Source: Candidatus Falkowbacteria bacterium RIFOXYD12_FULL_34_57 (lineage in GTDB: Bacteria; Patescibacteriota; Patescibacteriia; Patescibacteriales; UBA12075). Taken from it: 58,140 nucleotides of DNA. The notes below the pieces were generated by a model. It did not search any database. It saw nothing but the letters and a program-made list of their open reading frames with translations, and was not told where the DNA came from. The position numbers and the translations under genes are program-made. Location of the stretch: assembly GCA_001780285.1 (NCBI GenBank), contig MFGN01000016.1, positions 1 through 58,140 of the forward strand. Reading direction: 5' to 3'. Below, in pieces: positions 1,216-47,559 of the stretch. Each line of letters opens with the position of its first letter. Within the stretch, counting starts at the first letter, position 1.

Positions 1216-3516
1216 ATGGAAAAAGAAAAAATTTTTTCTACAAATTGGCTTGGCCGAACTCTCACATTTAAAACTGGTAAATTAGCCTTGCAGGCTAGTG
1301 CTGCCGTAATCGTACAATATGGAGATACGGTTGTTTTGGCTACCGTGGTAGAATCTAAAGAAGAAAAGGATGCATCTTGGTTTCCTTTAATGGTTGACTT
1401 TGAAGAAAGACTTTATGCTGGTGGTATTATAAAGGGCTCTCAGTGGATAAAAAGAGAGGGCCGGCCTACGGATGAAGCAATTCTTGCCGGTAGAATGATA
1501 GACAGATCTATTAGGCCATTATTTGATGATTCTAGCAGAAGAGAGGTTCAGGTGGTTGTTACTATTCTGGCTACTGATAAAGAAAATGACCATGATATAG
1601 TGGCGTTGATTGGTGCTTCTGCCGCGCTTTCTATTTCTGGTGTAAAGTGGAATGGTCCAATTGCCGGAATACGTATTGGACGCATAAACGGACAATTAAT
1701 TTATAACCCGACAATCAATGAAAAAAAAGAAAGTGATTTAGATTTGGTGGTGGCCGGAAACACAGAAACCATTATTCAAATTGAGGCTGGAGCAAACGAG
1801 GTAAAAGAAGAAGATATGTATCAGGCTATTGTTAGTGCTAAAGAAAAAATGGCGCCGGTTATTGATTTAATAAACAAGCTTAAAAAAGAAGTGCCTACCA
1901 CAAAAAGAGAAGAAAAAGAAAATATTTTAAAAACCTCCGAAGAAAAAGAACTAGAAGAAAAACGCAAACAAGGAATAGAAGTAGCTAAAAAATGGCTAAA
2001 AGAAAATGTAAACAAAATTCTTTTTGATAAAACTTTTTATTTAAAACAAGAAAGAAAGGCCGCTGTTTCAGAAATAAAAGAACAATTAAAAAAATATTTA
2101 GTTAATCAAAAAATCAACCCAACCCTAATCCAAGATATAATAAATAAAACAATAGATGAGGCGGTAGATTCAGAAATCACCAAAGAATTAATTGAGAATA
2201 AACGCCGTGTAGACGGAAGAGGAATTACGGATATTAGGGCGCTTTCAGCAGATATTAATGTTTTGCCTCGCGTTCATGGTAGTGGTTTATTTTCTCGCGG
2301 TGAAACCCAGATTATGTCCGTAGTAACCCTTGCAGGCCCAGGACTAGCTCAATCGCTTGAGGGTTTAGGTGGAAGCGGTGAAAAAAGATATATGCATCAT
2401 TATAATTTTGCTTCTTTTTCTGTTGGAGAAACAGGATTTATGCGCGGACCAGGAAGAAGAGAAATAGGTCATGGAGCTTTAGCTGAAAAGGCCCTTGCTC
2501 CGGTTTTACCATCTAAAGAGGATTTTCCCTACACCATCAGGGTGGTGAGTGAAACACTGGGATCAAATGGCTCATCCTCTATGGGTGCTACATGCGGATC
2601 AACGCTTGCCTTAATGCAGGCTGGTGTGCCAATCAAAAAAGCCGTAGCCGGTGTTGCTGTTGGTCTTGCTTCTTATAATGATATGAGCGCCTGGCAAGTT
2701 ATTACTGATATCCAAGACTTAGAAGATGGAAAAGGTGGCATGGATTTCAAAATCACAGGAACCAGCGATGGAATAACCGCAATTCAATTAGACACTAAAA
2801 CTCTTGGTCTTAATAATGAAATAATAAAAGAGGCTTTGAAACAAGGATATGAAGGAAGAATTAAAATCCTAGAAGCAATAAAAACCACTATTCCGGAGCC
2901 AAACAAAGAATTATCTCCTTATGCTCCTCGAATTACCAGTTTCTATATTGATCCGGAAAAAATTAGAGAAGTAATTGGTCCCGGTGGAAAAATTATTAAC
3001 GCTATTATTGGAGATTCTGAAATTACAATTGATATTGAAGATGACGGTCTTGTAATGGTGTGTGGCGCGGACCAAGAAATCACAAAAGAAGCTGTTAAAA
3101 AAATAAAAGATATCACAAGAGAGCTGCAAGCTGGTGAAAAATTCAAAGGAAAAGTGGTTCGTCTAATGGATTTTGGCGCCTTTATAGAAATACTCCCCGG
3201 ACGTGACGGTATGGTCCATGTATCTAAAATGGCTCCTTATCGAGTTGGTAGACCGGGAGACTTATTAAATATTGGCGATGAGGTTTGTGTAAAAATAGAA
3301 GAGATAGATGAACAAGGAAGAACAAATCTTTCTATGGTTGGTATAGTTGAGAATGAAGAATTATGGAAAAATCAAAAAGGAAAACAAGAAGGCGGTGGGT
3401 TTGGAGGAGGATTTAGAGGAAATGACAGAGGCGGAGGTAGGGGAAATTTCCGAGACAGAAGACCAAATTCTAATTTTAAACCACAAAATCCTAGACCGAA
3501 TAATCTAAAAAAATAA
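1216..3516 (+). CDS. pnp: polyribonucleotide nucleotidyltransferase (PNPase)
   Basis: Two RNase PH domains, KH (IREVIGPGGKIINAI) and S1 (GKVVRLMDFGAFIEILPGRDGMVHVSK), Gly-rich tail. Confidence 0.97.
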   Translation: MEKEKIFSTNWLGRTLTFKTGKLALQASAAVIVQYGDTVVLATVVESKEEKDASWFPLMVDFEERLYAGGIIKGSQWIKREGRPTDEAILAGRMIDRSIRPLFDDSSRREVQVVVTILATDKENDHDIVALIGASAALSISGVKWNGPIAGIRIGRINGQLIYNPTINEKKESDLDLVVAGNTETIIQIEAGANEVKEEDMYQAIVSAKEKMAPVIDLINKLKKEVPTTKREEKENILKTSEEKELEEKRKQGIEVAKKWLKENVNKILFDKTFYLKQERKAAVSEIKEQLKKYLVNQKINPTLIQDIINKTIDEAVDSEITKELIENKRRVDGRGITDIRALSADINVLPRVHGSGLFSRGETQIMSVVTLAGPGLAQSLEGLGGSGEKRYMHHYNFASFSVGETGFMRGPGRREIGHGALAEKALAPVLPSKEDFPYTIRVVSETLGSNGSSSMGATCGSTLALMQAGVPIKKAVAGVAVGLASYNDMSAWQVITDIQDLEDGKGGMDFKITGTSDGITAIQLDTKTLGLNNEIIKEALKQGYEGRIKILEAIKTTIPEPNKELSPYAPRITSFYIDPEKIREVIGPGGKIINAIIGDSEITIDIEDDGLVMVCGADQEITKEAVKKIKDITRELQAGEKFKGKVVRLMDFGAFIEILPGRDGMVHVSKMAPYRVGRPGDLLNIGDEVCVKIEEIDEQGRTNLSMVGIVENEELWKNQKGKQEGGGFGGGFRGNDRGGGRGNFRDRRPNSNFKPQNPRPNNLKK

Positions 3517-37509: not shown

Positions 37510-37538
37510 TTGACAAAATTATAAATTTATGATATAAT
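37510..37538 (+). promoter_or_regulatory. fully consensus sigma70-type promoter of the pilin-like array
   Basis: TTGACA-N17-TATAAT; about 290-nt leader to the first ORF. Confidence 0.75.
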
Positions 37539-37829
37539 TAAATAATAATAAAAATATTAATTTTAAATTTTAAAATTTATAAAAATATAAATTAGAGATT
37601 CTGCATTAGAAAAATGATTTAAATTTTATTCTTAACCGCTGTTTGGCAACAGTATAAAATTCCTAAATTTTAATATAGTTTTTAAAAATATGTTGAAATT
37701 TACGAATTTTAAAAGGTAAGTTAGGGTTAAAATATTTTTCAGCAGAATTTTTTTGTAAATTTTTGTGAAATATGTTAAAATAAAATTAATAACTTTTATG
37801 TTAAATACTCAAAAGAAAGGGGGTGAAAT

Positions 37830-38222
37830 ATGAAAAAAATAATAAGTACTTTAGCAATTTTTACTTTAGTAGTTTTACCTATGTTTACCTTTGCTTTGCC
37901 AGTTTCAGCTGACGCTAATGCGTTGTTGTGGGGAGGGCAAGCCGGAAATGTACAAGCTAACACCGGTTTAGGAAACGAAGATCCAAGAGTAATGGCATCA
38001 GCCGTTATCAATATTATGCTTGGATTCTTAGGTATTATCGCCGTTGTGATTATCTTACTTGGTGGATTTAAATGGATGACTGCTGCCGGCGATGAAGCAA
38101 AGGTAGATGAAGCAAAGAAATTAATCGGCGCTGGTGTGATTGGTTTAATTATCATTCTTTCCGCATACGGACTTGCATTGTTCATAATCGACAAGCTATA
38201 TACAGCCACGGGAGCTTCATAA
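37830..38222 (+). CDS. VirB2/TrbC-type (T4SS pilin-like) two-TM secreted protein, paralog 1
   Basis: Signal peptide; GGFKWMTAAGDEAKVDEAKKLIGAGVIGLIIILSAYGLALFI. Confidence 0.8.
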   Translation: MKKIISTLAIFTLVVLPMFTFALPVSADANALLWGGQAGNVQANTGLGNEDPRVMASAVINIMLGFLGIIAVVIILLGGFKWMTAAGDEAKVDEAKKLIGAGVIGLIIILSAYGLALFIIDKLYTATGAS

Positions 38223-38254
38223 TAATATTTATTGCTAGATCTAGTATATATCAA

Positions 38255-38323
38255 GGAGGTCCAAATTTTTTTGGATCTCCAAGTCTATAAATATAAAAAT
38301 AATTTTTATATTTATAGACTTGG
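38255..38323 (+). repeat. double hairpin after paralog 1
   Basis: GGAGGTCCAAA-TTTT-TTTGGATCTCC overlapping CCAAGTCTATAAATATAAAAAT-A-ATTTTTATATTTATAGACTTGG (22-bp perfect stem). Confidence 0.9.
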
Positions 38324-38386
38324 AAATTATTAAATAAAGTGGATTTTTATTAAAAATCTATATAAAAACTAGAAAAGAGGTGAAAT

Positions 38387-38779
38387 ATGAAAAAAATAAT
38401 AAGTACTTTAGCAATTTTTACTTTAGTAGTTTTACCTATGTTTACCTTTGCTTTGCCAGTTTCAGCTGACGCTAATGCGTTGTTGTGGGGAGGGCAAGCT
38501 GGAAACATACAGGCTAACACCGGTTTAGGAAATGAAGATCCAAGAGTAATGGCATCAGCCGTTATCAATATTTTGCTTGGATTTTTGGGTATTATTGCTG
38601 TATTAATCATCTTACTTGGTGGATTTAAATGGATGACTGCTGCCGGCGATGAAGGAAAGGTGGATGAAGCAAAGAAATTAATCGGCGCTGGTGTGATTGG
38701 TTTGGTTGTTATTCTTTCCGCATACGGACTTGCATTGTTCATAATCGACAAGCTATATACAGCCACGGGAGCTTCATAA
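38387..38779 (+). CDS. T4SS pilin-like protein, paralog 2 (near-identical to paralog 1)
   Basis: Same length, about six substitutions. Confidence 0.8.
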   Translation: MKKIISTLAIFTLVVLPMFTFALPVSADANALLWGGQAGNIQANTGLGNEDPRVMASAVINILLGFLGIIAVLIILLGGFKWMTAAGDEGKVDEAKKLIGAGVIGLVVILSAYGLALFIIDKLYTATGAS

Positions 38780-38807
38780 TAACAGGTTTTTTATTGCATA
38801 AAATAAA

Positions 38808-38871
38808 GTGGGATCTGAATTTTTCAGATCTCACAAACCATGAATATAAAAGATTATATTCATGGTTTGTG
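38808..38871 (+). repeat. double hairpin after paralog 2
   Basis: GTGGGATCTGA-ATTTT-TCAGATCTCAC overlapping CACAAACCATGAATATAA-AAGA-TTATATTCATGGTTTGTG. Confidence 0.9.
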
Positions 38872-38882
38872 AATGAAGCTAT

Positions 38883-39278
38883 ATGCCTAAAAATATAAAA
38901 ACTTTTTGTATTATTTTTATTTCTTTGTTTGTAATATTTTTACCTACCGTAATTTTGGCCGGAGACTATGGGTTAAATGAAACAGCCGGTCAAGCTTTTA
39001 TAGGAAATCCACAGGCACGAGAAAAGGATTTGCAAAGCGGAGGAATAATTACCAGTCTTCCATCAGCAATTGGAAAGTTTGTTGGAGCCGGACTTGCTTT
39101 CATAGGGGTTGTTTTTTTGGTGCTTATGATTTATGGTGGTTTTGTTTGGATGATAGCCCGTGGAAATGAACAAGAGGTGGAAAAGGCAAAAAATTTAATT
39201 GAAGCTGCAGTTATTGGCCTTGTTATTGTGATGAGCGCCTATGCTATTACCGCATATATTGGAGGGGCGATAACTTAA
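38883..39278 (+). CDS. T4SS pilin-like protein, paralog 3
   Basis: GGFVWMIARGNEQEVEKAKNLIEAAVIGLVIVMSAYAITAYI. Confidence 0.78.
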   Translation: MPKNIKTFCIIFISLFVIFLPTVILAGDYGLNETAGQAFIGNPQAREKDLQSGGIITSLPSAIGKFVGAGLAFIGVVFLVLMIYGGFVWMIARGNEQEVEKAKNLIEAAVIGLVIVMSAYAITAYIGGAIT

Positions 39279-39291
39279 TTATTTTTAAAAG

Positions 39292-39684
39292 ATGTTAAAG
39301 TTTTATAAATTAATAATTTTTAGTGCTTGTTTGGTGTGCGGCCTGTTTGTTTTGGGAAACATTAGTTGCGTACAGGCAGATACCGCTAAAGAATCTTTTA
39401 ATAAAAGCCTTTTAGAAACAGCTCAGGGAACCGGACACTCTACTGTCCAGTCAGGCTCTTTACTCCCAGAAACTGTCGGAAAAATAGTTAAAATATTTTT
39501 GTCATTTATCGGGGTAATTTTTTTAATTCTTATGATTTATGGCGGATATGTTTGGATGATGGCTCGCGGCAATGAACAGGAGGTCAACAAGGCTCAAAAA
39601 ATAATTCAAATGGCCGTAATTGGCATGATTATAGTTTTGTCAGCATACACCGCCACAATCTTAATTGGAAAAATAATAAAATAA
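39292..39684 (+). CDS. T4SS pilin-like protein, paralog 4
   Basis: GGYVWMMARGNEQEVNKAQKIIQMAVIGMIIVLSAYTATILI. Confidence 0.78.
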   Translation: MLKFYKLIIFSACLVCGLFVLGNISCVQADTAKESFNKSLLETAQGTGHSTVQSGSLLPETVGKIVKIFLSFIGVIFLILMIYGGYVWMMARGNEQEVNKAQKIIQMAVIGMIIVLSAYTATILIGKIIK

Positions 39685-39694
39685 TTATTTATTT

Positions 39695-40117
39695 ATGTTT
39701 GAGCTTAAAAATATATTAAAAATATTTTTAGTGTTTACTTTTTTATTGATCGTGAATGTTCAATTTTGTTTTGCCTTGAATTTAAGTGATGCTTTTAAGG
39801 CCAATGATGGAACCGACACAGACCCACTAGATGCCGCGGCAAAATCAGCCGGATATAATATACAGCAAACTACTACCATAGAAGATACAATCGCTTCGGT
39901 TATAAACACCATCCTTTCTTTTTTGGGAGTAATATTTTTGCTTCTAATAATGTATGGCGGATATACATGGATGATGGCTCGTGGTAATGAACAAGAGGTA
40001 GAAAAAGCAAAAAATACTATAAAAACAGCTACAATCGGACTGGTTGTTATAGTTGGGGCATACGCCTTTAGTTGGTTTATTTTACAAAATTTAGGAGAAA
40101 GCACTTTGCAAAAATAA
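39695..40117 (+). CDS. T4SS pilin-like protein, paralog 5
   Basis: GGYTWMMARGNEQEVEKAKNTIKTATIGLVVIVGAYAFSWFI. Confidence 0.78.
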   Translation: MFELKNILKIFLVFTFLLIVNVQFCFALNLSDAFKANDGTDTDPLDAAAKSAGYNIQQTTTIEDTIASVINTILSFLGVIFLLLIMYGGYTWMMARGNEQEVEKAKNTIKTATIGLVVIVGAYAFSWFILQNLGESTLQK

Positions 40118-40125
40118 TTTAAATT

Positions 40126-40542
40126 ATGTCTAAAAAAATATTCACTCAAAACGGATTTGTTTTGAGTGGAAAAACAAAATTAAAACAAATAATAACCCTA
40201 TCATGCCTCATTGTTGTTCTAGTTTTACCATTTTTTGTGTTTGCTGAAAGTGCGCCACTGACAAAGCTTAAAGAAGTTGGTACCACAAAGGGGCCATTTG
40301 TTGAAGCAGATCAATATTCTTTCGCTGTTTTAGTTGGTACTGTTGTAAAAGCTTTTTTAAGTCTGTTGGGAATTATTTTTATTGGGCTTGTAATTTATGG
40401 TGGATATAATTGGATGACAGCCAGAGGAGACGAAGCAAAAGTAAATAAAGCCAAGGAGGTAATTCAAAATGCCGTTATTGGTTTGATAATTACAATTAGC
40501 GCCTATGCTATATGGGATTTTGTGTTTTATAAAGTTATATAA
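40126..40542 (+). CDS. T4SS pilin-like protein, paralog 6
   Basis: GGYNWMTARGDEAKVNKAKEVIQNAVIGLIITISAYAIWDFV. Confidence 0.78.
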   Translation: MSKKIFTQNGFVLSGKTKLKQIITLSCLIVVLVLPFFVFAESAPLTKLKEVGTTKGPFVEADQYSFAVLVGTVVKAFLSLLGIIFIGLVIYGGYNWMTARGDEAKVNKAKEVIQNAVIGLIITISAYAIWDFVFYKVI

Positions 40543-40546
40543 GAAT

Positions 40547-40948
40547 ATGTTTTACAAATATTTTAAATTATCTTTGTTTGTTTTTTTTATAAATATTCTT
40601 TTTTTTACAAATTTTTGTAATGCCCAGTTAAAAGATTATTCGGGAATGGGAGGACAGGCAAATAAAACAGCTGAAACTGCAGGGTTTGATTCTGGTGTGG
40701 GGGGGGGAGATGCTATTGGTGGTATAATAGCTTCATTAATAAAAGCATTTTTAAGTATTTTGGGTATTATTTTTTTAATCCTAGTAATTTACGGTGGGTA
40801 TAAATGGATGATGGCTCGTGGCAGTGAACAGGAGGTTGAGGCAGCCAAGAATATAATCCAGAGAGCAATTATTGGCTTGATAATTATTGTAGCTGCATAT
40901 GCTATTACCGCTTTTGTGTTTACGGGACTTGAAGATGCTGTGCAATAA
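40547..40948 (+). CDS. T4SS pilin-like protein, paralog 7
   Basis: GGYKWMMARGSEQEVEAAKNIIQRAIIGLIIIVAAYAITAFV; start moved from 40505 to 40547 to avoid overlap with paralog 6. Confidence 0.78.
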   Translation: MFYKYFKLSLFVFFINILFFTNFCNAQLKDYSGMGGQANKTAETAGFDSGVGGGDAIGGIIASLIKAFLSILGIIFLILVIYGGYKWMMARGSEQEVEAAKNIIQRAIIGLIIIVAAYAITAFVFTGLEDAVQ

Positions 40949-41069: not shown

Positions 41070-41993
41070 TTATTTATAAATTTCATTGGTTAGACAATGA
41101 AAAGAACCGCCGGCAAAACGAAAATATGTCAAAGGAGAGTATTGGTGTTTTATTTCCATTTTTTTTAATTTTTCTTCTACATTAAGAGTAGAAAATTTTC
41201 CGCAGTTTAGGAAGATTCCGGGAGCAGTTAAGGCATTAACTGTGTAGTCGCCCAAACGGTTATTGTCACCAAAAGAATCTTGCTTTTTGATTAATATTAT
41301 TTTTTTGTTTAATTTTTTAATTTTTTTAAAACCATTTTCGGAAATATTTTCTTTGTTTAAAATAAAAGCAATTAATTCACCAGATTTATTAATTACCGGA
41401 CTAAGTACCGTATCTAGGTGGTATCCACTAGATTTTATTAAACAGTAATGATCAGGGTTTAATATTTTTCGTACAAAGTCATGACCTTTTTTATTTGATC
41501 TAGATAAACCCCCCAAATAAAAAGTTTCATTTTTTGTATGAATAAAAAAAACTTCCCCAAATTCTATATACGCATCAGCGGGAAGTTTTATAATTTTTTT
41601 ATTAAATTTTTTAGAAATATATTTGGCGTGTATATCGGCTTCTATTTTTCTATCAGAAACACTAAAGTTGGCTTTAATCCAATAATCTTTATACATAAGA
41701 CCCGCATCTCTGATAAAAACAGCATCATGGTGGAGACAGTTTTGTTGGTTTAATTCTTTGGGAAAAGGAAGAATGTGGAGTTTGAATCCGGTTTTTTTAA
41801 TTAAGTTAATAAAATTTTTGTAATCCTTTTTTATAACTGCTTGATCTGGAATTATTTTTTTTTGATCAGCGTATAAAGTGGCATAGTTTAAACTGGTTTT
41901 TGTTGTTCCCTTATGGACGGGGTACCCATTATACCAACAACCCCCTACTTCTCCATGAGGTTTTGGTAAATCTATAATTATAATTTCGTTCAT
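41070..41993 (-). CDS. amidinotransferase / DDAH-like guanidino-modifying enzyme
   Basis: HHDAVFIRDAGLMYKDYWIKANFS; C-terminal catalytic-type FAGGSFHCLTNEI. Confidence 0.8.
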   Translation of the reverse strand: MNEIIIIDLPKPHGEVGGCWYNGYPVHKGTTKTSLNYATLYADQKKIIPDQAVIKKDYKNFINLIKKTGFKLHILPFPKELNQQNCLHHDAVFIRDAGLMYKDYWIKANFSVSDRKIEADIHAKYISKKFNKKIIKLPADAYIEFGEVFFIHTKNETFYLGGLSRSNKKGHDFVRKILNPDHYCLIKSSGYHLDTVLSPVINKSGELIAFILNKENISENGFKKIKKLNKKIILIKKQDSFGDNNRLGDYTVNALTAPGIFLNCGKFSTLNVEEKLKKMEIKHQYSPLTYFRFAGGSFHCLTNEIYK

Positions 41994-42183: not shown

Positions 42184-43668
42184 ATGAAGATAAACAATAA
42201 AGTTTTATTTATTATTTTATTTATTCTTATTATTTTAAGTATAAGCGGGGCAGTATTTGTTTTTCAAGACAAAGTTTTATTTTTAAAAGATTGGATTATT
42301 AATATAAAAAAAGGAAAAGACAAAGATTTGAATCAGGGTCCTATTGCTCAAAAAATCCCACAAACCCCAAATGTGAATCAATATAAAGATATAAAAATAA
42401 ATATAGCAACAAGTTCTCAGGAAGTCGCTACTTCTACTGTTGAAGATGTGGAATTGGTTGGAGCTACAACTACCAACGATATTATAAATACCATAACCAC
42501 CTACGATGCGGAAGTGGTTTATGGGATACTTAAAGACACGGACGGTGATACACTTTATGATTATGAGGAGATGGCAGTTTTTGGCACCGATTATTTAAAT
42601 CCAGATACGGACGGTGATGGATTTAACGATCATGAAGAGGTAGACGGGGGATATAATCCATTAGGCGAAGGAAGATTGGCTACCAACTCACCCATTTTTT
42701 TGTTAAAAACAATAGAACGAGCGCGACACAACTGCGAGGGATTATTATATAAAAATAAAATTTATTATTTAACAGTAGAAATATTAAAAAAATATTTAGA
42801 ACCAGAAGATTTTTCAGATTTAAGTATAGCCAGTTCTGTTGAAAATTTTAATAATGAAATAAATAATTGGTTAGAATCAAATATTTTGGTAAATGATATA
42901 AAAAAAATAGCTATTATCAACAAAGAAGAAGTTGATAAAGATAAGATAAAATTTGAGTATAGAATTTTTTACGCAACACAAGAATATGAATATGTTTTTT
43001 CTGAAGATAAAAAATTATATTTTATTAACATTGACGGCGAGTGGAAGGTTGATGCTTATTTAAGCGCACTTGAAGATGTTAGTTTAGAGAAAGCAGAAAT
43101 TGAATTGGTTCAGAAAAAAACAATTTCTAATATAAAAAAAATTCAGACAGCATTAGACATGTATTATTTAGACAATGGTGTTTATCCAGAAAATATTTAT
43201 CCCGATATTGCTACAGGAAGCACTATTTATTTATCTACACCGTTTAATCAAAGTGAACCACTGATGTGTCCAGAGGCAGAAGAGTATGATTATAAAGTGG
43301 GTGTTACAAAAAAAGATTATAGTCTAATATATTGTTTAGAAAAAGAAATAGAAAATACTCCTTCGGGCATTAATATTGCTTCTCCGAGCATTTTGTCTAA
43401 TCGCATTAAAAACAAGGTTGTTTATAAGGACTGCAAGCAAGATAATAATATTTCTACCAGCACCATAGAGGATATGAAGATACAAGAAGAGAAAATTTCT
43501 ACCACCAGTGCTGAAAAGATAGATTCAGACCAAGATGGGCTTTTGGATATAGAAGAGCTTTTTTATAAAACAGATCCCAATAATCCGGATACTGATGGAG
43601 ATGGGTATATTGATGGAGATGAGGTTCGGGGTGGTTATAACCCAAATGGTGATGGATTGTTAATATAA
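42184..43668 (+). CDS. membrane-anchored thrombospondin type 3 (DxDxDG) Ca-binding protein with pseudopilin-like segment
   Basis: N-terminal TM; NPDTDGDGFNDHEEVDGGYNP and NPDTDGDGYIDGDEVRGGYNPNG; ISNIKKIQTALDMYYLDNGVYPENIYP. Confidence 0.75.
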   Translation: MKINNKVLFIILFILIILSISGAVFVFQDKVLFLKDWIINIKKGKDKDLNQGPIAQKIPQTPNVNQYKDIKINIATSSQEVATSTVEDVELVGATTTNDIINTITTYDAEVVYGILKDTDGDTLYDYEEMAVFGTDYLNPDTDGDGFNDHEEVDGGYNPLGEGRLATNSPIFLLKTIERARHNCEGLLYKNKIYYLTVEILKKYLEPEDFSDLSIASSVENFNNEINNWLESNILVNDIKKIAIINKEEVDKDKIKFEYRIFYATQEYEYVFSEDKKLYFINIDGEWKVDAYLSALEDVSLEKAEIELVQKKTISNIKKIQTALDMYYLDNGVYPENIYPDIATGSTIYLSTPFNQSEPLMCPEAEEYDYKVGVTKKDYSLIYCLEKEIENTPSGINIASPSILSNRIKNKVVYKDCKQDNNISTSTIEDMKIQEEKISTTSAEKIDSDQDGLLDIEELFYKTDPNNPDTDGDGYIDGDEVRGGYNPNGDGLLI

Positions 43669-43690
43669 TTAAATAAATTTTAATAAAATT

Positions 43691-46450
43691 ATGTTTAAAA
43701 AGATTTTTTTTAATATTTTTTTGGCAGTAATATTTTTTATTCTTACTTCTTTGAGCGCCAATGCCCAAGAGGTTGAATGTGCAAATATGATTGTTGATAT
43801 TATTGCTCGAAATGAAGAAAGGGAGGTTATTCGCGATCTTTCTTTTGCTGTTTATGAACAAACCAAGGATGTAGATAACAATAGTAAGCCTGGCACAAAA
43901 GTTGATTCAGGAAAAATTGATGTTGTTTTAGGGAAGGGGGTTGCAGAATTTGAACCGAAAGCGGAAAAATATGTTTTAACCTTTAGTTATCTCAGTAGTG
44001 ATCTAGCTACCTTTTATTTTTATGACGCTTTTGATGGAATATGCGGGGCGCACATAGAGATTACTAAAATATTAAGTAGTATTAAATTTACATTGCGCGA
44101 TTCAAACGGGGTTCTTAGAAAAAATACAAAATTTTCAGTTTATACCCAGGGACTAGATGCTGATAGCAACCCCATTAGGGAAAAAAGCGATTTAATTGCA
44201 TCTTTAAATTCAGGAGAAACAGGAGAAGTTGTTATTTATGTGCCAGATAGCTCCAGAAGCATAGATGGAAAAAGCGTTGATCGTTTTGTTTTTGAGTCCA
44301 AAAACAGCAACAATGGTGTTTATACCAAATATGATATTAATGTTAGTGATGAAAACACAACCAATATCCGTTATGTGTTTAGTGATATGGAACTAGAGTT
44401 TAAAGATGCTTCTGGGATTGTTTTTCCGGCCGATACCCAAGTGGAAATATTTGTCGAAAAAGAGGGAAGTGCCGACGAAGAGAAGCTTGATGAAAAACTA
44501 AAAACACTTTATACGGATGGAAAAGGAAAGGTGGTCTTTGAATATCCGGAAGGAAGATATGCGGCTAGAGTAAAAAATGCATCCGGACAATATCAATATT
44601 ATTTTAATTTACAAATCAGCGATCAGAAAAGAAGAAAATATGAATTAAAAGCGAATGAACAGTGGGAGGTTGAAGATGGGGTTTGTGAGGAAAGCTCTGT
44701 TTTTACGCTGATTACCAGAAATTATAACAGTAACTTTGTTCCAGATCTTAAGTATGAATTATACGAACAAATTGAAAATGCTGACGGAGTGCCGGCAGCT
44801 GGTAAGAAAGTATTAAGTGGAACTATAGATGAAAACGGAAAAGCAGTAAAAACATTAAAGCCCGACTCTAGAAAGGTATATGCCCTCAAGGTTTATGATC
44901 AAAATTCCAGTGTGGGGGATCTTTGGTTTTTTGATGAAGTAAAATTTATTTGTGGACAAGACAAAGAAATAACCAAAAAAATACCAGCCATTAACATAGT
45001 TCTTCGAAATGGTGATGGAGAACTTGTAAAAAATCATAAATTTTCATTATATACTCAAAAATACGATGCGGATAATAACCCAATCAAAGAGAAAGAAGAT
45101 TTAGTTAGCTCCTCCTTTACAACCAGTGAAGAGGGTATAGCTACGGTTTATATATCTCCGTATCAACCGTATACCCAGGGAAAATATGGAACCTATGTTT
45201 TTTCTAGCAAGGGGGAGATGGATGGAGATTTTATAGAATATGGTATACAGATTGCAAGTTATGGAAATATAGATTTTAATTATATTTTTAGCGATGCAAT
45301 TATTAAGCTCCGAGACCCAAATAACTTACCCAAGGCGGAAGTTTCTTTGGATGTATATGATCAGGGGAAAGATTTACGGGGTGGAAACGCGCTAGGAAAA
45401 AAAATTAAAAGTATAAAAACAGATGAAAACGGAGAAGTACACTTTGAATACCCAGAGGGAAAATATGCAATAGTTGTTCAAGATGGTATTAAAAATGATA
45501 ATATTTTTTGGGACACTGTAATCAAAAATCAACAAAGAATTGAAAAACAAATAACACCAAATTTAACAAGGGTAAAAGTTTTTAATCAAAATAACAAGCT
45601 GGAAACAGAAAAAATCTCTATCTCTATTTATAGTATGACAGAGGATGAAAATGGTTTGTTTTATATTGGAAAGAAGGCAGGAACTATAAAGCCAAACAAC
45701 CTTGGTTATTCCGAAATTTCTCTCCGCCCGGATGCTTATTTATTTGTTGTGCAATATGATAAAAAAGATTATGGTCAAGCGCTTTATACGCAGAATGGTA
45801 TTCAACAAGATTTAAGTATTTATTTGAATAAAAATTACGAAATAAGCTTCAATCAAAAATTTAAATTAACCAAGCCCCAAATATCCACAACCAGCACTCT
45901 GGGAAAGAGGTTGAAAGGACGGATACTATTACAAGTAGAAGAGCACGGAGAAGCCTGGTATGTGGATCTGAAATCAAATAAAAGATATTATATGAAGAAC
46001 GGTTTTACGGCCTATGAGATGATGCGCAAGTTCGGATTGGGAATTACTAACGCCAATCTGGAAAAGATACCGGTAGGACTGGACGACCGTTTTAAAGAAA
46101 AAGATACCGACGGCGACGGCGTGCCTGATAAAATGGAAGAGGCTGTAGGCAGCGATCCGAAAAAAACAGATACGGACGGCGACGGTTATTCTGATTATAC
46201 GGAAATCAGAAACGGTTATAATCCGAACGGTTCCGGAAAAAAAGATTTTGACCAGGGTTTGTTGGAAAAAATGAAAGGTAACATATTGCTGCAGGTCCAG
46301 TCGCGCGGCGAAGCATGGTATGTCAATCCCGATGACGGCAAGAGATATTACATGAAGGACGGCGACAGCGCCTATGAGATCATGAGGTTTTTAAGTCTGG
46401 GCATCACCAATGAAGATTTGGAAGAGATTGAAGAGGGGGAGATGGAGTAA
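43691..46450 (+). CDS. large secreted protein: duplicated Ig/prealbumin-like halves, TSP3 repeats and two LLQV-GEAWYV-RYYM modules
   Basis: Signal peptide; FSVYTQGLDADSNPIREKSDL/FSLYTQKYDADNNPIKEKEDL; DTDGDGVPDKMEEAVGSDPKKTDTDGDGYSDYTEIRNGYNPNG. Confidence 0.8.
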   Translation: MFKKIFFNIFLAVIFFILTSLSANAQEVECANMIVDIIARNEEREVIRDLSFAVYEQTKDVDNNSKPGTKVDSGKIDVVLGKGVAEFEPKAEKYVLTFSYLSSDLATFYFYDAFDGICGAHIEITKILSSIKFTLRDSNGVLRKNTKFSVYTQGLDADSNPIREKSDLIASLNSGETGEVVIYVPDSSRSIDGKSVDRFVFESKNSNNGVYTKYDINVSDENTTNIRYVFSDMELEFKDASGIVFPADTQVEIFVEKEGSADEEKLDEKLKTLYTDGKGKVVFEYPEGRYAARVKNASGQYQYYFNLQISDQKRRKYELKANEQWEVEDGVCEESSVFTLITRNYNSNFVPDLKYELYEQIENADGVPAAGKKVLSGTIDENGKAVKTLKPDSRKVYALKVYDQNSSVGDLWFFDEVKFICGQDKEITKKIPAINIVLRNGDGELVKNHKFSLYTQKYDADNNPIKEKEDLVSSSFTTSEEGIATVYISPYQPYTQGKYGTYVFSSKGEMDGDFIEYGIQIASYGNIDFNYIFSDAIIKLRDPNNLPKAEVSLDVYDQGKDLRGGNALGKKIKSIKTDENGEVHFEYPEGKYAIVVQDGIKNDNIFWDTVIKNQQRIEKQITPNLTRVKVFNQNNKLETEKISISIYSMTEDENGLFYIGKKAGTIKPNNLGYSEISLRPDAYLFVVQYDKKDYGQALYTQNGIQQDLSIYLNKNYEISFNQKFKLTKPQISTTSTLGKRLKGRILLQVEEHGEAWYVDLKSNKRYYMKNGFTAYEMMRKFGLGITNANLEKIPVGLDDRFKEKDTDGDGVPDKMEEAVGSDPKKTDTDGDGYSDYTEIRNGYNPNGSGKKDFDQGLLEKMKGNILLQVQSRGEAWYVNPDDGKRYYMKDGDSAYEIMRFLSLGITNEDLEEIEEGEME

Positions 46451-46500: not shown

Positions 46501-47559
46501 ATGCAAAAAGATCATATTACAATTTCATTTACCCGCCGGCAGTTTTATTTGCTGGGATTTGTTTTGGCTGCCGCGGTTATCAGCGCCTCTTTTTTGTGGG
46601 CGCGGGCGGCTTTTATCGAGCCGACTGCCGGGCCGGCATCAAGCGATCAGGATTTCGCGCAGAACATCCTAGGCGCGAATAACGCGGATAATGATTTTTC
46701 TTCCAATGCGGTAACGCCTGATGCGGACGGATCGATTATCGAGCGGCTGGAGGGTTTTGCGGATTATATGGCGGCGCGGGACAGGAATGACTACACTTAC
46801 GGCCGGGGTTGGATTGCCAGCTCTACCGGAAGCAATGCCACTACTTCGTTAACGCATAAAGCTTGTGAAGAGGCGAACGGCTGGGAATGGTTCGAGGATG
46901 GGAACGGCGACGGCGACACGATCGACGACGAAGATGGCATCTGCGTCCAGACTACGGCGGTCAGTTCCGGAGTTTTGTGCTGGAATGGAGATGATTATTC
47001 TTCCAATACTGACAATAGCTATATCGCCGCCTATACCTGTTCCGGCTCTTTCCCGAACGGAACGGTTGCCAGCTATTCAGGGATAGATTCGAGCGGCATT
47101 GCCGACGACGCCTGGGATGACGGGGACTGCGCCCTGTGCCAGGCGGACTGCTATGACGGCCGCAAGGACTTGCCGGACCAGGGCGGTTATACCGCTCCTG
47201 ACAATACTTGTACTTCCAACGAAGACTGTTATGAAGGGCCGCTGACGCCGGAAGTGCTGAAGAATTGGAAAGGCACTAAATTGCCTACAGCACAGGATTT
47301 TTACGGATTTTGCGGGTACAAGGACGGTGGATCCAATTATGAGACCGGGTGTTCTTCGGATGAGACTTTGGGCTATTACGGGCAGATGGTCGGACGGACC
47401 GATGAGTGCCTGGATTTGTCAGATACTGGAAACTTTGAATGGCTCTCCGAACAGTTCGGCAGCAGTGTTGCGCAAATAGCCGGTAGCGAAGCCTGCTCTT
47501 ACGTGAATTACTTTGATATCGACTTCAGCTTCAGGTTTCGAGCCGTCTTTCGTCCGTAG
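46501..47559 (+). CDS. secreted/surface Cys-rich acidic protein
   Basis: N-terminal TM/signal RRQFYLLGFVLAAAVISASFLWARAAF; multiple Cys; C-term FSFRFRAVFRP. Confidence 0.65.
   Translation: MQKDHITISFTRRQFYLLGFVLAAAVISASFLWARAAFIEPTAGPASSDQDFAQNILGANNADNDFSSNAVTPDADGSIIERLEGFADYMAARDRNDYTYGRGWIASSTGSNATTSLTHKACEEANGWEWFEDGNGDGDTIDDEDGICVQTTAVSSGVLCWNGDDYSSNTDNSYIAAYTCSGSFPNGTVASYSGIDSSGIADDAWDDGDCALCQADCYDGRKDLPDQGGYTAPDNTCTSNEDCYEGPLTPEVLKNWKGTKLPTAQDFYGFCGYKDGGSNYETGCSSDETLGYYGQMVGRTDECLDLSDTGNFEWLSEQFGSSVAQIAGSEACSYVNYFDIDFSFRFRAVFRP

Follow-up and report, generated by a model that had tools for sequence, protein, structure and literature searches.

A tandem array of seven T4SS-type pilin genes in a Falkowbacteria-like genome as candidate subunits of a single filament

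Seven neighbouring genes for pilins of the type IV secretion system (T4SS) type, P1-P7, occupy one strand of a 58,140-nucleotide stretch of DNA (the window, meaning the whole stretch analysed). They raise the question of whether such a row of related proteins provides the parts of one structure or a set of alternatives for the same part. The source genome (1.6 Mb, 37 contigs) belongs to a Falkowbacteria-like member of Patescibacteria and contains 15 PF18895 domains, with the array on contig C16; its bearer is an ultrasmall, probably host-dependent bacterium. The array is of a known kind, since arrays of pilins have already been described in Patescibacteria (PMC12102498) and T4SS pilins are essential in Southlakia epibionticum, where they lie within the T4SS cluster (Wang et al. 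2023, PMC10633639); six VirB2-like pilins are cited for that species in a review (PMC12857230). In 383 Patescibacteria assemblies, 441 VirB2 arrays with 2-11 pilins each were counted by Quinonero-Coronel et al. (2025, PMC12102498), PF18895 being among the models used; two or more pilins in tandem make such an array, and here there are seven. The pilin set matters because it is not known what the T4SS does in Patescibacteria (PMC11665869), although the system is essential in the sole species tested.

The preliminary description had proposed seven consecutive T4SS-pilin-like paralogs of the VirB2/TrbC type. The reading frames are present (37830-40948, + strand, 130-147 aa as listed), and in a profile search all seven exceed the gathering score of PF18895 T4SS_pilin (26.6 bits), with 32.2-41.5 bits. 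The stricter TrbC/VIRB2 model is not matched over its threshold: none of the seven reaches the PF04956 cut-off of 27.9 bits and P2 alone appears below it (15.2 bits, E 0.025). The NCBIfam model NF045849 (pilin-like conjugal transfer) matches all of them, P5 alone being over the cut-off (46.5 vs 40 bits). The described shared motif is borne out by 17 invariant columns, including GG, W-M, A-G, E and I-G, which are concentrated in the two-helix core. A repeat search joins a 131-nt core of all seven genes into one direct-repeat family and finds a separate 300-nt repeat of 94% covering P1/P2. Taken together, the seven frames, the scores over cut-off, the shared columns and the repeat family indicate that the array is not due to chance. 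For P7, the probable start is 40547, 4 nt past the stop of P6, and not 40505, which falls within P6. The features are collected in Table 1.

Table 1. Positions of the pilin genes, of the candidate expression signals around them and of the giant pilin-headed pair. SD, Shine-Dalgarno site; MFE, minimum free energy; slots are lettered array positions.
Feature	Position	Strand	Description
Promoter-like site	37510..37538	+	TTGACA-17-TATAAT; 12/12 consensus match, TG before -10 (consensus scan)
Candidate P1 5' leader	37545..37829	+	285 nt, A+U-rich, one long predicted hairpin
P1 SD	37814..37826	+	Near-perfect, AGAAAGGGGGTGA; duplex energy -20.8 kcal/mol
P1	37830..38222	+	Slot A, candidate major T4SS-type pilin, 130 aa; PF18895 32.2 bits
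P1-P2 spacer hairpins	38250..38330	+	Strong; spacer MFE -49.0 kcal/mol
P2 SD	38371..38383	+	Strong, AGAAAAGAGGTGA; duplex energy -15.0 kcal/mol
P2	38387..38779	+	Slot A, second copy of candidate major pilin, 130 aa; PF18895 34.7 bits
P2-P3 spacer hairpins	38810..38873	+	Spacer MFE -37.1 kcal/mol
P3	38883..39278	+	Slot B, candidate minor pilin, 131 aa; PF18895 36.9 bits
P4	39292..39684	+	Slot C, candidate minor pilin, 130 aa; PF18895 32.9 bits
P5	39695..40117	+	Slot D, candidate minor pilin, 140 aa; PF18895 41.5 bits
P6	40126..40542	+	Slot F, candidate minor pilin, 138 aa; PF18895 33.3 bits
P7	40547..40948	+	Slot G, candidate minor pilin, 133 aa from likelier start; PF18895 41.3 bits
Terminator-like stem-loop after P7	40970..40993	+	10-bp stem
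Giant pair	L018:5551-14372 (contig C5, about 99550-108370)		Adjacent, exported, 878 and 2052 aa

All of P1-P7 show a hydrophobic stretch at the N-terminus and two more segments of transmembrane strength, so the hydropathy profiles depict them as exported two-TM proteins with a signal-like N-terminus, in agreement with the signal peptide and two helices noted at first. In the AlphaFold2 model of P1 (mean pLDDT 81.8, most of the core >90), long helices at residues 52-83 and 89-127 pack into a hairpin. A Foldseek search of this model against the PDB gave nothing significant (no match with E <2), the hairpin being too simple to discriminate, and a PDB sequence search with a 44-row pilin profile gave no match. 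A two-helix hairpin is not diagnostic. The comparison with VirB2/TrbC pilins (PF04956; F, T and TrbC pili) is one of how they work: like these, the present proteins have a signal peptide, two hydrophobic helices and a short polar loop, but none reaches the PF04956 cut-off and no PDB relative appears by sequence or fold. The Mbov_0395 family of mycoplasma integrative and conjugative elements (NF045849) matches all seven, six of them under its curated cut-off; it is an ICE protein, while no ICE context was seen around the pilins here.

With a probability of about 0.6, the locus encodes subunits of a T4SS-type (VirB2-like) filament for the chromosomal T4SS of a Patescibacteria epibiont, with P1/P2 as its main and P3-P7 as its fixed accessory set. 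According to this reading, P1 and P2 would be two copies of one abundant main filament subunit, and P3-P7 five distinct subunits of low abundance that form a fixed set rather than alternatives. The pilins would be exported by Sec and then parked in the membrane as two-helix hairpins, in which the conserved GG-x-WM...G-E loop would face the cytoplasm; such a loop-inside topology is established for VirB2-type pilins. A VirB4/PrgI/VirB6-like core encoded elsewhere on the chromosome would pull them into the filament, whose assembly would then depend on the VirB4 of this genome.

The signals for expression divide the array in two. Energies of Shine-Dalgarno duplexes were scored against the anti-SD of the genome's own 16S rRNA, whose end is GGATCACCTCCTTTCT. 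The best site among 105 other ORFs from seven stretches of the same genome, a set that left out P1 and P2 because the opposite-strand ORFs were longer, has -12.2 kcal/mol, and the sites of P3-P7 are weak. Across 15 arrays/genomes, slot A has a median of -20.3 kcal/mol, while the medians of slots B-G lie at about -3 to -5. A strong slot A site is not seen in L066, nor at the second copy in L068 or the later ones in L071. This split fits one major pilin (P1/P2) and five minor pilins (P3-P7), with the amounts predicted from the SD sites. In other classes, a strong site marks one or two members in 5 of the 12 arrays examined, often at the opposite end.

The layout of the genes follows the same division. 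Slot A stands first in the array, and in most cases ~70-290 nt that include a strong hairpin separate it from the later genes, which are packed tightly; the strong hairpin 3' of the last slot A gene recurs in most relatives. In the P1-P2 spacer, 26-nt arms (38275-38300/38302-38327) are 96% complementary. The promoter-like site sits 291 nt upstream of P1, and its perfect consensus is seen in this genome alone and is not kept in relatives, for which reason a promoter may be proposed for this genome only. The predicted fold of the P1 leader has an MFE of -63.7 kcal/mol (z -5.7 vs dinucleotide shuffles), and strongly folding leaders also occur in two relatives. Searches of this leader and the spacers against Rfam found no family at gathering score, only chance miRNA-type matches below the cut-off. 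Downstream of P7, the reading of the stem-loop as a terminator is only suggestive, since the T-run after the stem is poor.

Pilin domains of the same class also head two giant proteins encoded on another contig. Their N-termini are PF18895 domains, which fall inside the slot A clade of the pilin tree (SH-aLRT 100) and are 48-54% identical to P1; further domains are Big_5 (Ig-like), TIG and fn3, with a Cys-rich region in the larger protein. Orthologous giant pairs can be aligned almost from end to end. Counted by eye among the matches listed, at least 47 of the 59 relatives have an open frame of no less than 450 aa with a slot A-like pilin, and at least 36 of the 59 have an adjacent giant pair. 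The smaller giant's passenger region is shared by 10 of the 11 other genomes of the class, whereas none of 180 sampled genomes of other classes shows it; the pair is conserved across the order and the smaller giant class-wide. The AlphaFold2 model of the smaller giant, made from a 7-row alignment, has a low overall confidence (mean pLDDT 50.7), its usable parts being the N-terminal hairpin, the same as in the pilins, and some of the beta domains that follow. No Shine-Dalgarno site is evident in the sequence upstream of the listed start of either giant; an alternative in-frame start of the larger one has a moderate site (-10.7 kcal/mol), and its translation level is uncertain. Literature searches returned no description of such proteins under the terms tried, which is no proof of their being undescribed.

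The giants could be pilus-borne contact proteins. Probably a few copies of them would be incorporated in the same filament or at its base, so as to display their Ig-like, TIG, Cys-rich and Fn3 domains on the outside, where these could plausibly serve contact with a host cell. A wider proposal, tentative and given somewhat less than even odds, is that of a composite filament made of the main pilin, the five minor pilins as a fixed set and the two giants, which would co-polymerise with the main pilin via the same hairpin and expose these domains, forming a class-specific apparatus for host contact that is attached to a T4SS. The main pilin, the five fixed accessory proteins and the giants are testable candidates for the shaft of the filament, for its accessory components and for the proteins that make contact, respectively.

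Among other explanations, the one that survives best, although it is judged unlikely, is that these proteins never make a long pilus outside the cell and instead serve the T4SS as a channel or stalk that is embedded in the membrane or spans the cell wall. T4SSs of monoderm bacteria usually lack pili (PMC12102498), and the proteins are small two-TM hairpins from which a filament is only inferred. However, one main subunit whose ribosome-binding site is exceptional, accompanied by rarer variants, resembles the stoichiometry of a polymer more than that of a fixed pore, and in the giants the same hairpin bears exported domains of very large size.

Whether P3-P7 differ from each other in a fixed or an interchangeable manner can be judged from their relatives. 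Named relatives of the P1 class come from Candidatus Falkowbacteria, Uhrbacteria, Magasanikbacteria and other Parcubacteria-group MAGs. In a tree built from 115 pilin domains, taken from 15 arrays and from the giants, the pilins cluster by array position and not by genome. Since many inner forks of this tree are poorly supported, a tree-free test was added, in which slots were set by gene order alone in nine related arrays with five non-A members. Cross-genome best hits fall in the same slot in 437 of 496 cases (88%), as do 412 of 428 reciprocal best hits. Slots B (P3) and F (P6) find their own slot in 72/72 cases each, G (P7) in 66/72 and D (P5) in 53/72, while C (P4), with 38/72, is the weakest and most divergent. 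Identity is 42.8% within a slot between genomes vs 34.3% between slots of the same genome; for the exported N-terminal segments the values are 27.5% vs 17.9%. These figures support the view of slots as non-interchangeable subunits, and they argue for such arrays as heteromeric machines and against a store of variants that could replace each other. In some arrays, one or two additional pilins stand among the minor slots, and slot A is amplified to 1-4 copies across species, with copies mostly clustering within a genome. Orthology of slots across classes was also considered and is rejected on present data, as the pilins group by lineage there and the tree is poorly resolved.

The preliminary description had left two readings side by side, a multi-subunit apparatus with variable tips and a set of alternative pilins. 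The multi-subunit part is supported by the matching of slots across species and from the strong ribosome-binding site at the first position only; variable tips are unsupported because the N-terminal segments are conserved by position. Use of alternative pilins has been proposed for the VirB2 paralogues of Bartonella and Anaplasma, and the array could by the same logic be a reservoir from which different pilins are drawn at different times or in different cells, varying the surface or matching hosts. The divergence of the exported N-termini among paralogues and the lineage-specific amplification of slot A speak for this, and adaptation to different hosts is a published suggestion for Patescibacteria arrays (PMC12102498). 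Nevertheless, it appears improbable. P3-P7 match one-to-one by position across species, and they are packed with gaps of 4-13 nt and no switching signals were seen. The exported N-termini do differ in all but the first two genes, as first described, but P1 and P2 are 95% identical throughout and not in this segment alone. They differ at 18 codons, 12 synonymously and 6 non-synonymously, and a dN/dS of about 0.12 indicates purifying selection, hence they offer little variation.

The filament reading also calls for an assembly machinery. The first report that no VirB4, VirB6 or VirD4 is visible is correct for the window and does not extend to the genome, because the core lies on another contig, at an unlinked locus. 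Contig C5 encodes PrgI (over cut-off), a protein with a TraC/TrsD-like N-terminal part (TraC_F_IV-like, sub-threshold) and a VirB4-like ATPase (P-loop_TraG, E 8e-27), next to a long membrane protein that may be VirB6-like, a name given from position and length only; a VirD4-like gene is on contig C3. The genome thus has the VirB4, PrgI/VirB3 and TrsD homologues of Patescibacteria T4SSs, though not beside the array. A TrbL_3 (PF19590) search was uninformative, as none of its controls gave a match. No relaxase was recognised among the genes adjoining the T4SS core.

Near the array, no core gene occurs within 9 kb in this genome or in the relatives examined, so that the functional link of array and T4SS is drawn here by analogy. 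Arrays of this type are tied to the T4SS because, in one genome of another class (L171), a six-pilin array directly adjoins VirB6-like, PrgI, TrsD and VirB4 genes. Published linkage of core genes with arrays is not universal (1135 of 1948 assemblies; PMC12102498). Like the arrays treated there, the present one consists of tandem PF18895 pilins, with an MPF-FATA-like VirB4 and no outer-membrane complex in the phylum; the maximum within-array identity given is 54% vs 95% for P1/P2, and its accessible text makes no mention of slot orthology, of a major/minor split in ribosome-binding sites or of pilin-headed giants. S. epibionticum likewise is a host-dependent member of Patescibacteria with several divergent tandem T4SS pilins, but these are inside the T4SS cluster, in contrast to the unlinked array here; the cross-class tree took in the sampled arrays, without Southlakia. 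Least probable is an adhesive surface system of array and giants that works independently of VirB4 and resembles T4SS pilins by ancestry only: array, giants and virB4 cluster are all unlinked here, relatives have no core gene near the array, and giants and arrays are widespread in the order, but the array adjoins virB4 in L171, the Southlakia pilins sit within an essential T4SS cluster (PMC10633639), and no other ATPase that might assemble hairpins of this kind was identified.

Besides the array, six further PF18895 pilin genes lie elsewhere in the genome, single or paired (L020:127-950, 3017-3433; L021:9824-10642; L022:8335-8649; L023:6582-6965). Beside the array, an arginine-dihydrolase/dimethylargininase-like enzyme (PF19420 over cut-off) is encoded on the opposite strand at 41070-41993. 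A conserved link of the array to this gene or to FtsH was considered and rejected, as relatives show no conserved neighbourhood. The secreted Ca-binding repeat-protein locus described downstream exists as genes for two exported proteins with bacterial TSP3 repeats (42184-46447; 494 and 919 aa), the smaller with a weak T2SSG-like stretch and the larger with repeated internal stretches; it lies beyond the opposite-strand gene, and nothing ties it to the array. Further on, at 46501-47559, a 352-aa exported protein without a Pfam or NCBIfam match is encoded in a stretch of clearly higher G+C content (0.47 vs about 0.31).
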